This document shows, piece by piece, positions 40,760 through 52,997 of a DNA stretch of 63,984 nucleotides. The stretch covers positions 1 to 63,984 of the forward strand of contig JANXPB010000165.1 in the NCBI GenBank assembly GCA_025357545.1, given 5' to 3'. The translations under genes and the position numbers were made by a program. The DNA is from Holophagaceae bacterium (GTDB lineage Bacteria; Acidobacteriota; Holophagae; Holophagales; Holophagaceae). Position 1 is the first letter of the stretch. Every line of letters starts with the position of its first letter. A model generated the notes under the pieces. It was not told where the DNA came from. It worked only from the letters and a program-made list of their open reading frames with translations, and searched no databases.

Positions 40760-40833
40760 GATCCCGTAGCTCAGCTGGATAGAGCGTCTCCCTCCTAAGG
40801 AGAAGGTCGCGCGTTCAAATCGCGCCGGGGTCA
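40760..40833 (+). tRNA. tRNA-Arg (anticodon CCT)
   Basis: It folds as a full cloverleaf. The acceptor GATCCCG pairs with CGGGGTC, the D arm is GCTC/GAGC, the anticodon stem is TCTCC/GGAGA with loop CTCCTAA (anticodon CCT), and the T arm is GCGCG/CGCGC with TTCAAAT. The discriminator is A. The 3' CCA is not encoded. It reads AGG codons. Confidence 0.96.
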
Positions 40834-47443: not shown

Positions 47444-48400
47444 ATGCCCCCCGCCGCCTCCGCCTCTCCCATGGAGCCCCTGCTCGCCGAATGCCGGAAG
47501 GTGATCGTTGGCCAGCCCCACCTGCTCAACCGCCTTGTAGTGGCCCTGCTCTGCCGTGGACACGTACTGCTGGAGGGCCTGCCCGGCCTGGCCAAAACCC
47601 GCACCATCAAGACCCTGGCCGGGGCCAGCCACATGCTGTTCCGGCGCATCCAGTTCACCCCGGACCTGCTGCCCAGCGACGTGGTGGGCACACTGATCTT
47701 CGATCCCAAACAGATGACCTTCACACCCAAGAAGGGGCCGGTATTCGCGAACTTGCTGCTGGCCGACGAGATCAACCGGGCCCCCTCCAAGGTCCAGAGC
47801 GCCCTGCTGGAGGCCATGGAAGAACGCCAGGTGACCCTCGGGGACGACAGCTTTCTCCTGCCGGATCCCTTCCTGGTGCTCGCCACCCAGAACCCCTTGG
47901 AGCAGGAGGGCACCTTCCCCCTGCCAGAAGCCCAGATGGACCGCTTCCTGTTCAAGCTGCGGGTGGACTACCCCGGCGCCGCCGAGGAAGTGGAGGTCCT
48001 GCGGCGGGCCGACGGGAACGAAGAGCTGGTCCGGCCCATCGCCGATGCGGCCACCCTCCTGGCCATGGGCCAGCAGGCCCGCCGCGTGCGCATGGACGAT
48101 GCGATCCGCAATTACATCGTCAAGCTCGTGCAGGCCACCCGCCCGGGCATCGGCAAGGAGTGGAAAGGCCGTGAGCACCTGCGCTGCGGCGCCAGCCCAC
48201 GGGCCTCCTTGGCCCTGCAGAGCGCTTCCAAGGCCCTGGCCTACGTCAACGGACGGGACCATGTGTTGCCGGACGATGTGGTGGGCCTGGCCCCGGATGT
48301 CTTGAGGCATCGGCTGCTGCTCACCTATGAGAGCGAAGCCGACGGCGTGCGGACGGACCAGGTCATCACCCAGCTGCTCCAGGCCATTCCGCGGCCTTGA
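47444..48400 (+). CDS. MoxR-family AAA+ ATPase
   Basis: A 318-residue AAA+ ATPase. Walker A is LLEGLPGLAKTRTIK, Walker B is LLADEINRAPSKVQ, followed by LATQNPLEQEGTFPLPEAQM, the sensor region, and a C-terminal lid domain (CGASPRASLALQSASKALA). MoxR proteins work as chaperones, typically with VWA-domain partners. No VWA, BatA or DUF58 gene follows here. ATG 47444 is used; ATG 47471 is also possible. Confidence 0.92.
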   Translation: MPPAASASPMEPLLAECRKVIVGQPHLLNRLVVALLCRGHVLLEGLPGLAKTRTIKTLAGASHMLFRRIQFTPDLLPSDVVGTLIFDPKQMTFTPKKGPVFANLLLADEINRAPSKVQSALLEAMEERQVTLGDDSFLLPDPFLVLATQNPLEQEGTFPLPEAQMDRFLFKLRVDYPGAAEEVEVLRRADGNEELVRPIADAATLLAMGQQARRVRMDDAIRNYIVKLVQATRPGIGKEWKGREHLRCGASPRASLALQSASKALAYVNGRDHVLPDDVVGLAPDVLRHRLLLTYESEADGVRTDQVITQLLQAIPRP

Positions 48401-48656
48401 TAGGCCCTGATGGGCCCTGGGTTGACCCTAATGAGGGATTCAAGCCATTCTAGGTTGGGTCCCGAAGGAAAGGAGGTTGCGATGAGCGGTAGTGTGCCAA
48501 TCGCTGAACCTCCGTCGTCCGGGCCGCAGACCGGGAACTGAGGCGCCTCCTCCAGGCTGGATGGCGGTCGTCACGTTCCGGTCACGCGGCCATGGAATGG
48601 TTTGATGTGACACCTCCCGCGATCCGATGGGCCGCGGCCTTCCTTCCGGCTTTGCC
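48401..48656 (+). promoter_or_regulatory. Structured leader of the ABC transport operon
   Basis: TTGACC (48422-48427), with CATTCT 18 bases on, could be a promoter. It is followed by AAAGGAGG (48469-48476). GGAGGTT (48472-48478) pairs with AACCTCC (48507-48513), and the next GCGAT (48479-48483) pairs with ATCGC (48500-48504). This gives a 12-bp hairpin with a two-base bulge that hides this ribosome-binding site. CCTCCTCC at 48545-48552 could compete for the same site. The rest, up to the permease start, shows only the direct repeat GTCACG. This looks like a cis-acting control region. Confidence 0.5.
48482..48541 (+). CDS. Possible 19-codon leader peptide
   Basis: ATG 48482 follows AAAGGAGG with a five-base gap, the strongest translation signal of the region. 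The 19-residue product (MSGSVPIAEPPSSGPQTGN) is Pro/Ser-rich with no run of one amino acid. It ends 115 bases before the permease ATG. It may be a translated leader controlling the operon rather than a functional protein. Confidence 0.4.
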   Translation: MSGSVPIAEPPSSGPQTGN

Positions 48657-50396
48657 ATGATCCACCGAATCCTTGACAGCATGTGGGGCCAGGCCAATGC
48701 GCTGTTCTCGCCCTTCCGTCGCCGGCGGTGGGTGGACTTGGCCTTGGTGGCCTCAGTCTTCGGCCTGGTCTACGGGCTGATCCTGATGGGCCACGAAGTC
48801 ACGGATGTCCTGCGGCCCCAGATCGAGATCGATCTTTCGCCTTTGTCACTGGTGAAGTACACCTTTTTCTCCATGATGCGGGGGCTGGCCGCCTACCTGA
48901 TCTCCTTCTGCTTCACGCTGGTCTACGCCTTCTGGGCCGCCAAGGACGCCAGGGCCGAAAAACTGCTGGTGCCACTCCTGGACATCCTGCAAAGCATCCC
49001 GGTGATGACCTTCATCGTGCCCTTGCTGCTGGCTCTGGTGGCCATCTTCCCACGCAGGAATGTGGGCATCGAACTGGCGGCCATCATCGCGATCTTCACA
49101 GGCCAGGCTTGGAACATGACCTTCAGCCTCTACCACTCCCTAAAATCGGTGCCCGCTGAACTGCAGGAGGTGGGCACGGTCTACCGGTTCAACTGGTGGC
49201 AACGCTTCAAATGGATCGAGCTGCCCTTCGCCACCACCGGCCTGGCCTGGAATTCAATGATGAGCATGGCCGGCGGCTGGTTCTTCCTCATGATCATCGA
49301 GGCCTTCAAGCTCGGCGAACGGGATTTCCGGGTGCCCGGACTGGGTTCCTACATGAGCGTCGCAGCGGAGCGGCATGATGTGCGGGCCCAGATCTACGCC
49401 GTCATCGCCATGATCATCATGATCATCGTGCTGGACCAGGTCATCTGGCGCCCGATCGTGGTCTGGGCCCAGCGTTTCAAAGTCGAGGACACAGCCCAGA
49501 CCGCAGCGCCCCAAAGCTGGTTCCTCAACCTGATCCGTCGTTCCCGGCTGATCCGGCGCTGGGACCACTGGCGGGCCCGACGCCGGGCCCGGCCCCAGGC
49601 CACTGGCAAGGCCGAGCCCCGCAGTGCCGCCGCGCGCGCCGAGGTGGCCGCGCCCTGGATCACCGGCATCGCCCTGCTGCTCATCGGAGGCCTGCTCGTG
49701 CTCGGAGGCTTCGGCGTGGTGCGCCTGCTCTCCCAGCTGCAGCCCGGGGCCTGGTGGTACCTGGCCCGGGCCGACGGGCTGACCCTGTCACGGGTCCTGG
49801 CTTCCATCCTGATCGGCACCGCCTGGGCCCTGCCTGCGGGCCTGGCCATCGGGCTCTCACCGCGGCTTTCGAAAATCTTCCAGCCCATCGTCCAGGTGGC
49901 CGCCAGCTTTCCGGCGCCCATGCTGTTTCCGGCGGTCATCGGCCTGCTTGCCGCTTTCCATATCGGGCTGGGCTGGGGCAGCATCGTGCTCATGCTGCTG
50001 GGCACCCAGTGGTACATCCTGTTCAACGTCATCGCCGGCGCCTCGGCCATCCCCAGCGATCTTCGGGAAGTGGCCACCTCCTTCAGCCTGGGGCGCTGGC
50101 AGCGGTTCAAGGCTCTCTACCTGCCTTCGATCTTCCCCTACCTGGTGACCGGCTGCCTCACCGCAGCCGGGGGTGCCTGGAACGCCAGCATCGTCTCCGA
50201 GTACTACAATCTGAGCGGGCCGACCCTCAAGACCTTCGGCCTTGGCGCCATCGTGAGCCAGGCTGGGGAGCAAAAGGATTTTGCGCTGCTGGCCGCCTCC
50301 ACGCTGGTGCTCGCACTCACCGTGGTGATCTTCAATCGCCTGGTGTGGAAACCGCTGTATGCGTTGGCCGAAACCCGCTATTCCCTGACCAAGTGA
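48657..50396 (+). CDS. ABC transporter permease, two fused NitT/TauT-type permease domains
   Basis: A 579-residue inner-membrane protein made of two BPD_transp_1 units. Unit 1 (~residues 25-260) has the EAA-type loop VPAELQEVGTVYRFNWWQRF. Unit 2 (~340-579) has IPSDLREVATSFSLGRWQRF. A basic loop rich in Arg joins them. The family imports nitrate, sulfonate or taurine-like anions, but the substrate is unknown here. The start at 48657 or ATG 48627 is uncertain. The ATP-binding gene follows seven bases after the stop. No substrate-binding protein gene is in the operon. Confidence 0.9.
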   Translation: MIHRILDSMWGQANALFSPFRRRRWVDLALVASVFGLVYGLILMGHEVTDVLRPQIEIDLSPLSLVKYTFFSMMRGLAAYLISFCFTLVYAFWAAKDARAEKLLVPLLDILQSIPVMTFIVPLLLALVAIFPRRNVGIELAAIIAIFTGQAWNMTFSLYHSLKSVPAELQEVGTVYRFNWWQRFKWIELPFATTGLAWNSMMSMAGGWFFLMIIEAFKLGERDFRVPGLGSYMSVAAERHDVRAQIYAVIAMIIMIIVLDQVIWRPIVVWAQRFKVEDTAQTAAPQSWFLNLIRRSRLIRRWDHWRARRRARPQATGKAEPRSAAARAEVAAPWITGIALLLIGGLLVLGGFGVVRLLSQLQPGAWWYLARADGLTLSRVLASILIGTAWALPAGLAIGLSPRLSKIFQPIVQVAASFPAPMLFPAVIGLLAAFHIGLGWGSIVLMLLGTQWYILFNVIAGASAIPSDLREVATSFSLGRWQRFKALYLPSIFPYLVTGCLTAAGGAWNASIVSEYYNLSGPTLKTFGLGAIVSQAGEQKDFALLAASTLVLALTVVIFNRLVWKPLYALAETRYSLTK

Positions 50397-50403
50397 GGCG
50401 ACC

Positions 50404-51696
50404 ATGCACGCCGTGACTCATGAAATCATCTGCGAACTGAAAGGCATCCAGAAGTCTTTCGACCGGGGCAACGGGAAGCCGTTGAGGGTGCTGGAGGACA
50501 TCAACCTGGATATCCGCGCCAACGAGGTGGTGGCGCTCATCGGCCCCTCGGGCTGCGGGAAATCCACCATCCTGCGCATCTTTGCCGGGCTGATTTCCGC
50601 CAGCAAAGGCAAGGTTTACTATCATCAACAGGAAATGAACGGGCTCACTCCGGGCGTGGCCATCGTGTTCCAAGGCTTTGCTCTGTATCCGTGGATGACT
50701 GTGGAGGAAAACGTCCGCACGGTGCTGCGCGCCAAGGGCATGGCCGAGGATGACGTCCGCACCCGGGCCAATCGCGCCATCAGCCTGGTGGGGCTCGAGG
50801 GTTTCGAAGAAGCCTACCCCCGGGAGCTGTCCGGCGGCATGAAGCAGCGCGTGGGCATGGCCCGCGCGCTCTCAGTGGATCCGGAAATCCTGTTCATGGA
50901 CGAGCCTTTCAGCGCCGTGGACGCCCTCACGGCCGAAGGCCTCCGGGCGGAGATCCTGGACATCTGGAGTGACACCGCCACCAACCCATCCAGCATCCTG
51001 ATGGTCAGCCACGACATCAAGGAAGTCGCCTACATGGCCGACCGCATCGTGGTGCTGTCCGCCAACCCCGGCCGGGTGCGCACCATCGTGGAGAACCCGC
51101 TGGCAAGGCCCCGGGACTCGCGCAGCCCCGAGTTCCTGCGCCTGGTGGACCAGCTGCACGACATCATCACCAGCACCGAGCTGCCGGACGTGGAGATCTC
51201 GGCGCCGGAGCCCAGTTTGCTGTCCGACACGGTGGAACCCCTGCCTCCAGCCCCCAGCACCGACATCCTGGGTCTGCTGGAATTCCTGGAGATCCAGGGC
51301 GGCACCTGCGACCTCTTCCAGGTGGTGGCCCACACCCACGTGGCCTTCGAGAAGGTGCTGGCTTCGGTGAAGGGCGCCGAGATGCTCGATTTCGTGGACA
51401 CGCCCAAGCGCATGGTGGTACTCACGCCCTTGGGCCAGCGCTTCGTGCGCGCCAACATGGACCAGCGCAAAGATATCTGGAAGGAGCAGCTCCTGGCCCT
51501 GCGGTTGTTCCGCATCATCGGCGAAATGCTGGAGATGCACCATGGCGAGCTGAAGCGCCATGAGGTCATCGCCGAGATCCAACAGCGGCTGCCCATGGAG
51601 AACCCCGAACTGACCTTCGAGACGCTGGTCACCTGGGGCAGGTTCGGTGAGCTCTTCGCTTATCGCGAGGATCGCGGCGTGCTCACACCGGAATGA
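50404..51696 (+). CDS. ABC transporter ATP-binding protein with AAA-associated C-terminal domain
   Basis: A 430-residue ATPase of the NitT/TauT class. Walker A is LIGPSGCGKST, the Q-loop is VFQGFALYPWMT, the signature is ELSGGMKQRVGMARAL, Walker B is ILFMDEPFSAVD and the switch His is in MVSHDIKEV. The extra ~150 C-terminal residues (TDILGLLEFLEIQGGTCDLF onward) match the AAA-associated/PF09821-like domain, which is winged-helix-like and probably regulatory. The stop overlaps the porin ATG (ATGA). Confidence 0.92.
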   Translation: MHAVTHEIICELKGIQKSFDRGNGKPLRVLEDINLDIRANEVVALIGPSGCGKSTILRIFAGLISASKGKVYYHQQEMNGLTPGVAIVFQGFALYPWMTVEENVRTVLRAKGMAEDDVRTRANRAISLVGLEGFEEAYPRELSGGMKQRVGMARALSVDPEILFMDEPFSAVDALTAEGLRAEILDIWSDTATNPSSILMVSHDIKEVAYMADRIVVLSANPGRVRTIVENPLARPRDSRSPEFLRLVDQLHDIITSTELPDVEISAPEPSLLSDTVEPLPPAPSTDILGLLEFLEIQGGTCDLFQVVAHTHVAFEKVLASVKGAEMLDFVDTPKRMVVLTPLGQRFVRANMDQRKDIWKEQLLALRLFRIIGEMLEMHHGELKRHEVIAEIQQRLPMENPELTFETLVTWGRFGELFAYREDRGVLTPE

Positions 51697-52997
51697 GGGG
51701 GCCCCGGATGAGGCCTGTCGCCCTCGCCCTGGCCGCGGCCTGCCTGGGGGCGTCGGCCCAGGAGGCCGGCGACGCAGCCTGGAACCTGCACGGCCAGGGC
51801 ACGTTGGTGGTCCAGGGCCATGGCGCCTTCGATTCGCCCTACGCGGGGCCCAACAGCTTCCAGTCCCGCAAGGAGACGCGCACCTCCTTCACCGCCACCT
51901 TGTTCGCCGGCTGGCGCCCCTGGCCGGGCTGCGAACTATACCTGAATCCCGAACTCAGCGCCGGCACCGGCGTCAGCCAGGTCCTGGGCCTGGCGGGCGC
52001 CCCCAACGGCGAGATCTACCGGGTGGACAGCCCCCAGTTGAAACTGAGCCTTGCGCGGGTCTTCCTGCGCCAGACCTGGTCGTTCGGGGGCGCCTCCCAG
52101 CGGGTCGGCAGCGACCAGAACCAGCTGGCGGGCTCCCAACCAGGCCGCCGTCTGGTGCTCACGGCCGGCCGCTTCAGCACGCTGGATGTCTTCGACGCCA
52201 ACAGCTACGCCCACGATCCGCGCACCCAGTTCCTGAACTGGGCCCTCATGGGCTCCGCTGCCTGGGACTACCCGGCGGATACCCGCGGCTACACCTGGGG
52301 CATTGCGCTGGAAGGTTATTGGGATGCCTGGGCGCTGCGCCTGGGCAGCTTCCTGGAACCCCTCAAGGCCAACCAGCTGGACTTCGACCACCAGATATCG
52401 CGGGCCCACGGGGACGTGGTGGAACTTGAGCACGACCATGCCTGCGCCGGCCAGGAGGGCAAGCTCCGGGCGCTGCTCTTCATCAACCAAGCCCGCATGG
52501 GCGAGTACCGCCAGGCTCTCTCCTCGCCACTGCCCGATGTGACCGCCACCCGCGCGCCGGGCCGCCGCAAGTACGGCTGGGCGCTCAACGCAGAACAATC
52601 ACTCTCAAGCGACCTGGGCGCCTTCGCCCGCTACAGCTGGAACGACGGCGCCACCGAGACGTGGGCCTTCACGGAAATCGATCGCAGCCTGTCCATGGGG
52701 TTCCAGGCTAGAGGCACTGCCTGGGGACGTCCTGCGGACAAGGTTTCGCTAGCCTTCGTCTCCAACAGGCTCAGTAGGGACCACGCGGATTACTTGAGGG
52801 CGGGCGGGTCTGGCTTCCTGTTGGGCGATGGTCGCTTGAACGAAGGCGGCGAGCGCATTCTCGAGACCGTTTACAACGCTCAGATGGGATCTCATCTGAA
52901 CTTGAGCCTAGACGCCCAGCGGGTGTGGAGCCCCGGCTACAACCGGGACCGCGGGCCGGTCAACCTCTTCGCGCTGCGGATCCACGCGGCCTTCTAG
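51693..52997 (+). CDS. OprB-like outer-membrane porin
   Basis: A 434-residue exported barrel protein. A signal peptide (RPVALALAAACLGASAQ) is followed by typical carbohydrate-porin text: NSFQSRKETRTSFTATLFAG, LYLNPELSAGTGVSQV, LSLARVFLRQTW and a C-terminal strand ending in aromatic Phe (FALRIHAAF), the usual outer-membrane insertion signal. Translation is coupled to the ATPase stop; ATG 51708, behind GAGGGG, is an alternative start. It presumably passes the transporter's substrate across the outer membrane. Its stop overlaps that of the convergent EamA gene as CTAG. Confidence 0.85.
   Translation: MRGPRMRPVALALAAACLGASAQEAGDAAWNLHGQGTLVVQGHGAFDSPYAGPNSFQSRKETRTSFTATLFAGWRPWPGCELYLNPELSAGTGVSQVLGLAGAPNGEIYRVDSPQLKLSLARVFLRQTWSFGGASQRVGSDQNQLAGSQPGRRLVLTAGRFSTLDVFDANSYAHDPRTQFLNWALMGSAAWDYPADTRGYTWGIALEGYWDAWALRLGSFLEPLKANQLDFDHQISRAHGDVVELEHDHACAGQEGKLRALLFINQARMGEYRQALSSPLPDVTATRAPGRRKYGWALNAEQSLSSDLGAFARYSWNDGATETWAFTEIDRSLSMGFQARGTAWGRPADKVSLAFVSNRLSRDHADYLRAGGSGFLLGDGRLNEGGERILETVYNAQMGSHLNLSLDAQRVWSPGYNRDRGPVNLFALRIHAAF

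Follow-up and report, generated by a model that had tools for sequence, protein, structure and literature searches.

The operon for an ABC-type double permease in the analysed window, i.e. the whole stretch of 63,984 nucleotides of Holophagaceae DNA, is headed by a short leader which, by analogy to known systems and at a probability of roughly 0.6, would act as a cis-acting leader-peptide attenuator of a Mg2+-linked transport regulon. It would resemble mgtL while belonging to a separate family that is specific for the Holophagaceae, a family of soil and sediment bacteria. The first-pass annotation, made from the sequence alone, had proposed a translational attenuator or riboswitch-type control of this operon. 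From this proposal, the conserved cis-regulatory leader before a transport operon was retained, whereas a ligand-binding riboswitch fits worse than a ribosome-sensing leader peptide, since the ORF encodes a conserved [E/D]PP peptide.

Anatomy of the leader

The features of the leader and its neighbourhood are compiled in Table 1. The double permease is the first gene of the operon behind the leader, and its start lies most likely at 48657 and not at 48627, since conservation begins at MIHRILDSMWGQ. The Shine-Dalgarno sequence (SD), the hairpin covering it and the 19-codon ORF driven by this hidden ribosome site had all been claimed in the first-pass annotation. Direct reading located each of them as described, and in relatives the hairpin recurs and the ORF is in frame. 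The hairpin comprises 12 bp, with an unpaired TG between its two 3' segments. Its 5' arm contains the SD and ends with the AT of the start codon ATG, and its 3' arm doubles as the codons Ile-Ala-Glu-Pro-Pro. Since the same codons form the anti-SD strand, RNA and peptide are dual-coded. A second pairing partner of the SD, CCTCCTCC, had been placed at 48545-48552; it is located one base further at 48546-48553, and this alternative pairing was dropped because it is not conserved among the aligned leaders. Folding of the window on its own provides modest evidence (z = -1.3 for 121 nt and z = -2.6 for 260 nt).

A promoter block, GGGTTGACC...CA(GA/TT/TG)CTG, is conserved at a fixed distance 5' of the element in 40 aligned leaders; a strict consensus scan for promoters did not call the TTGACC/CATTCT pair of the window. 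A transcription start downstream of 48513, which had been named as an observation against the proposed control, is not what the computation points to, as the conserved predicted promoter TTGACC-N(17-18)-CANNCT lies 5' of the element. No terminator-like site was found in 48300-48760. An amino-acid attenuator of the trp type was rejected on account of this absence and of the presence of only two adjacent Pro codons. The earlier reading had recognised no riboswitch family, and a search of 48380-48700 against Rfam 15 likewise gave no match to a riboswitch or leader family even at E <= 10; the M-box covariance model (RF00380) had no match in the window. The sole Rfam match within the whole window is a tRNA gene at 40760-40833. 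In a further Acidobacteria genome, Acido-Lenti-1 RNA was matched close to the locus of a permease homologue (L018, 1948-1994).

Table 1. Features of the leader and the adjacent genes in the window
Feature	Position	Strand	Details	Basis
Upstream neighbour, MoxR-type AAA ATPase gene	ends 48400			
Predicted promoter	48422..48451	+	TTGACC 48422-48427, 18-nt spacer, CATTCT 48446-48451	
SD of the leader ORF	48469..48476	+	AAAGGAGG	direct reading of sequence
Hairpin, 5' arm	48472..48483	+	GGAGGTT (48472-48478) and GCGAT (48479-48483)	folding, pair counts
Leader ORF, 19 codons	48482..48541	+	MSGSVPIAEPPSSGPQTGN*; ATG 48482-48484, TGA 48539-48541	
Hairpin, 3' arm	48500..48513	+	ATCGC(TG)AACCTCC; ATCGC 48500-48504, AACCTCC 48507-48513	
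Glu-Pro-Pro codons, invariant peptide core	48506..48514	+	GAA CCT CCG	
Spacer, ORF stop to permease start	48542..48656	+	presumed expression platform	
ABC transporter double permease	48657..50396	+	two BPD_transp_1 regions	Pfam PF00528
ABC ATPase	50404..51696	+	C-terminal AAA_assoc_C domain	Pfam PF00005, PF09821
OprB-type porin	51693..52997	+		Pfam PF04966

Conservation of hairpin and peptide

A covariance model of the element, built from 26 sequences, matched 62 of 77 Holophagaceae genomes with one or two copies each (E down to 1e-14), and the element is kept across nine genera; the genome of the window contains one copy. The covariance-model search detected no copy in the 16 genomes from elsewhere in the class, and among 396 genomes of the phylum matches were restricted to Holophagaceae and one marginal case elsewhere (E = 0.009). 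The permease upstreams of the relatives share the order of this promoter, GGAAAGGAGG, start codon and a GARCCTCC closing the hairpin. Their alignment, which had been suggested as a check, showed conservation of both stems and of the short ORF. Because of the recurrence in 62 of 77 genomes and the ORF that is in frame in 68 of 68 distinct cores, the element is real beyond the folding of the window, and it is highly likely to represent a conserved, translated cis-element. No earlier description of it was found in the literature searched, and no short acidic/proline ORFs with an SD were found before homologous permeases of other phyla. Two pattern matches before such permeases were discarded, being the tail of the preceding ATPase gene.

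In the 26-sequence alignment, 87.9% of the cells were paired, compared to 36-61% after sliding the 3' arm by 1-3 columns. Changes on both sides of a pair occurred in 9 cells compared to 4.9 expected (0 of 500 shuffles as high), a covariation that is moderate and comes from sequences of related genomes. The main covarying pair is the column pair 25:63 with U-A in 8 and G-C in 7 cases. Furthermore, the residue before Glu tracks the stem, as GCG pairs with the Ala codon GCN and UCG with the Asp codon GAN. This coupling of the 25:63 pair to the residue before Glu indicates that the same bases serve hairpin and peptide. A conserved downstream switch structure was not found.

Every member contains an in-frame ORF, resulting in 68 distinct cores and 62 distinct peptides. 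Common to all 62 peptides is [E/D]-P-P-[S/L], with an extended core of [ILV mostly]-[A,S,D,E,N,T]-[E/D]-P-P-[S/L]; the residues N-terminal to it and the 2-12 codons forming the tail are freely variable. The GG[A/G]GG of the SD is kept in 68 of 68 distinct cores. Between SD and start codon the spacing shifts in steps of one base, whereas the motif always follows the start codon at a whole number of codons (7, 8 or 12), and [E/D]PP accordingly begins at codon 8, 9 or 13 in each of the 68 cores. The acidic codon was GAA in 56, GAG in 8 and GAC in 4 of these cores, the first Pro codon CCT in 67 and CCC in 1, and the second Pro codon CCG in 54, CCT in 8, CCC in 4 and CCA in 2. The wobble base of the second Pro lies outside the stem and takes all four bases with Pro being kept. 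The first base of the acidic codon is unpaired in the hairpin, and its base 2 stays A in the 15 of 68 cores whose stem partner is not U. In the leaders of four NRAMP genes the acidic residue is Asp (GAC) and not Glu, a change that retains the charge and breaks the pair.

As GANCCNCC was part of the pattern used to gather the elements, the gene upstreams were rechecked with a codon-neutral hairpin pattern. This revealed no hairpin leader with another motif; the exceptions were either unrelated sequence or arose from non-greedy matching within genuine elements. As judged from the sequences, the ORF is under coding selection and more than a decoy.

Genes behind the leader and the connection to Mg2+

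Among 77 extracted copies of the leader, the gene behind is the double permease in 52, an OprB porin in 13 and an NRAMP gene in 10 cases, while two were unassigned (one chance match and one copy at a contig end). OprB-type porin homologues elsewhere in Holophagaceae have their own leader copy in front; porins inside the ABC operon have none. In several Geothrix-type genomes, the ABC operon lies near a porin-NRAMP operon and each has its own copy. Within genus g4 (Geothrix), a near-identical leader precedes permeases of two lineages sharing only about 50% identity, which indicates that the leader follows function rather than gene. Permeases without the leader were found in genus g10 (G013, G021; L103, L105) and in G035 (L104), G006 (L099) and G011 (L125); in G035 and G006 it stands before the NRAMP gene instead. 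Some Geothrix-type genomes contain a further copy between porin and NRAMP, with NDPPS instead of [A/D]EPPS (L215:1881, L216, L224 and L226), and these four second copies were absent from the listing of the covariance-model search.

A DxxG in helix 1 and a TxxA/T in helix 6 form the signature of Mg2+-transporting NRMTs (PMC8806188). The NRAMP protein of L181, the only copy in which the signature residues were fully read, comprises DAGG in helix 1 and TTIAPW in helix 6 and thus the DxxG-TxxA signature. The NRAMP of L146 has DAGA at helix 1, so that the signature does not hold for every copy. Behind the NRAMP copies L181, L227 and L229, the next protein is related to one with an MgtE N-terminal domain and CBS (assigned by Pfam in L181 only), and an MgtC gene is located nearby in L181. 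Altogether, the genes behind the leader copies make up a Mg2+-linked transport regulon of the ABC permease with its ATPase, OprB porins and NRAMP transporters of the NRMT type.

In Firmicutes, six of the eight loci (L033, L045, L048, L053, L079 and L080) have an M-box, a Mg2+ riboswitch (RF00380), directly before the homologous permease, with 122-164 bits; relatives of this double permease are annotated as nitrate/sulfonate/bicarbonate transport. The M-box search was negative in all 77 Holophagaceae genomes, with a positive B. subtilis control. Published M-boxes are almost confined to corA, mgtE, mgtA and some NRAMP genes, and they also precede NRMT genes in Clostridia (PMC4072509). The association with ABC permeases hence appears to be little noticed, and no report of it was found in the literature searched. 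The signal of the leader is likely to be Mg2+ rather than an anion, and with reasonable confidence Mg2+ over another metal. In Holophagaceae the leader occupies the slot that the M-box holds in Firmicutes, and the translating ribosome would probably sense Mg2+ there in place of the riboswitch.

Proposed mechanism, related systems and alternatives

According to the proposed mechanism, transcription would start just 5' of the element at the predicted promoter, and the mRNA would fold such that the Ile-Ala-Glu-Pro-Pro codons cover the SD of their own ORF. An initiating ribosome would open the hairpin and reach the acidic-Pro-Pro motif within about 11 codons, where elongation would be slow and the complex prone to stall or to fall off. 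In analogy to mgtL and mgtQ, low Mg2+ (or poor Pro-Pro decoding) would lead to a stall or abort at the motif, while the ORF would be completed in high Mg2+. Stall or completion would then set the folding of the downstream RNA and hence the expression of the operon, either via Rho-dependent termination in a C-rich spacer or via the accessibility of the first gene's start.

The spacers of the relatives show a C-over-G skew (mean +0.20 compared to +0.04 upstream), and that of the window is just +0.04. Since a C excess is hardly seen in the window, an output via Rho is suited only in part. Pairing between the SD region and the permease start was predicted in many leaders; for the window, the expected number of pairs was about 7 in the free RNA, 9 with a ribosome on EPP and 0.2 with a ribosome at the start codon. 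As the cognate pairing was not consistently higher than the mismatched one across genera, this long-range pairing was not retained and is regarded as possible at most.

In E. coli, the EPDP motif of mgtL causes ribosome drop-off in low Mg2+ and thereby turns mgtA on (PMC11282234), and acidic codons of Salmonella mgtQ act likewise in combination with alternative stem-loops (PMC8092293). High Mg2+ suppresses the drop-off that acidic nascent chains cause (PMC9718836), and EF-P/EfpL-dependent pauses at XPP favour a G-first codon before the prolines (PMC11611912). In analogy to these precedents, we infer Mg2+ as the signal, [D/E]PP as a ribosome-based sensor, low Mg2+ as the ON direction, and the output step. 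Low Mg2+ is most likely the inducing state, and stalling or drop-off at [D/E]PP is slightly favoured as the sensing step. Drop-off motifs usually contain two or more acidic residues. Since most leader copies comprise one (AEPP, SEPP), plain Pro-Pro stalling is equally likely as destabilisation of the ribosome.

The anatomy of the leader corresponds to that of mgtL in front of E. coli and Salmonella mgtA, with a short ORF in the 5' leader, an acidic/proline motif ([E/D]PP here) near its start and Mg2+-linked transporter genes downstream. Unlike mgtL, it carries a single [D/E]-P-P-[S/L] about 7-12 codons in, with EPP instead of EPDP, its codons hide their own SD, and it is restricted to Holophagaceae, where it precedes ABC, porin and NRAMP genes; sequence homology was not seen. 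The tiny acidic/proline ORFs mgtQ, mgtP and mgtM of Salmonella mgtCBR are likewise coupled to RNA folding before a Mg2+-transporter gene (PMC8092293), but mgtQ is intergenic with acidic codons 2 and 5, whereas the leader described here heads its operon and carries Pro-Pro. The M-box (ykoK) occupies the same slot before homologous Firmicutes ABC permeases, but the present element is coding, has about 60 nt and gives no M-box covariance match. In M. tuberculosis, the leader that contains the conserved small uORF Rv1805A is controlled by Mg2+ and shows Rho-dependent termination (PMC12810186); there, however, an M-box senses and the ORF lies 3' of it, while a riboswitch is absent here. RAPP-type arrest peptides share the Pro-Pro-centred arrest motif in a short regulatory ORF, but they are tied to protein-localisation genes and have Arg-Ala before Pro-Pro (PMC10951233). 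In contrast to this Arg-Ala-Pro-Pro core, E or D precedes Pro-Pro in 68 of 68 distinct cores.

The invariance of Pro-Pro in the 68 distinct cores could also be explained by a leader peptide that senses Pro-Pro decoding, i.e. EF-P activity or charged tRNA-Pro, with an indirect Mg2+ link as for Salmonella mgtP. The codon before Pro-Pro is always G-first (GAA, GAG or GAC), as favoured at XPP pauses, and Glu ahead of a Pro run causes intermediate to strong stalling of ribosomes (PMC4176338). Nonetheless, the invariant acidic residue would be superfluous for sensing tRNA-Pro and the regulon is linked to Mg2+ and not to proline, which renders this explanation rather unlikely. A switch made of RNA only, in which the SD hairpin responds to Mg2+ (or Mn2+ or temperature) and the peptide is a by-product of the anti-SD strand, would account for the 3' arm CCTCC being dictated by pairing with GGAGG and for the compensating changes in the inner stem. 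It is considered quite improbable, as it leaves unexplained the unpaired first base of the acidic codon, the base 2 kept when unpaired, the substitution of E by D, the second Pro with its free wobble base and the loop lengths in multiples of codons; moreover, no aptamer-like domain is present beyond the 12-bp hairpin.

The nature of the metal and of the sensing as such was considered as well. NRAMP proteins carry mostly Mn2+ or Fe2+, and Mn2+ or another divalent metal would then be both the signal and the transported ion. NrmT of Acidobacterium capsulatum rescued growth dependent on Mn2+ rather than on Mg2+ (PMC4072509), so that the metal could be Mn2+ here as well; no other characterised NrmT of Acidobacteria was found in the literature searched. 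Mn2+ is nevertheless unlikely in view of the M-box heading the homologous Firmicutes permease, the NRMT signature of L181 and the MgtE_N/CBS and MgtC neighbours. For a plain translated leader ORF without sensing, e.g. a translational enhancer or standby site, the same element would not be expected before three unrelated types of transporter genes of one regulon across nine genera, making this highly improbable.

If the reading as a Mg2+-responsive leader peptide is true, it would represent an independent invention of nascent-chain Mg2+ sensing, of which no description was found for the phylum Acidobacteria. The 62 distinct peptides in three gene contexts would provide a natural series for the residues that make a ribosome Mg2+-sensitive. 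More tentatively, an undescribed family of Mg2+-sensing leader peptides beyond enterobacteria can be proposed, in which the anti-SD arm is at the same time the ribosome-destabilising [D/E]PP code and which replaces the M-box; the double permease of ABC type, together with the OprB porin, would then count as one more class of Mg2+ uptake system in bacteria. Two unrelated regulators of the Mg2+ type at the same position predict a role in Mg2+ homeostasis for this widespread ABC transporter with its nitrate/sulfonate/bicarbonate annotation, and the M-box-headed double permease of Firmicutes is a candidate Mg2+ uptake system.

Four Firmicutes leaders (L045 5803-6000, L048 5794-6001, L053 5674-5850 and L080 5628-6001) contain a further short ORF, located 3' of the M-box terminator and 5' of the permease, which has a good ribosome site and begins with Met-Asp. 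Three of these ORFs show Asp at position 4 (MDCDGNG..., MDSDSS... and MDGDAS...), while that of L080 reads MDSCSR...; they may represent a second, acidic leader peptide.
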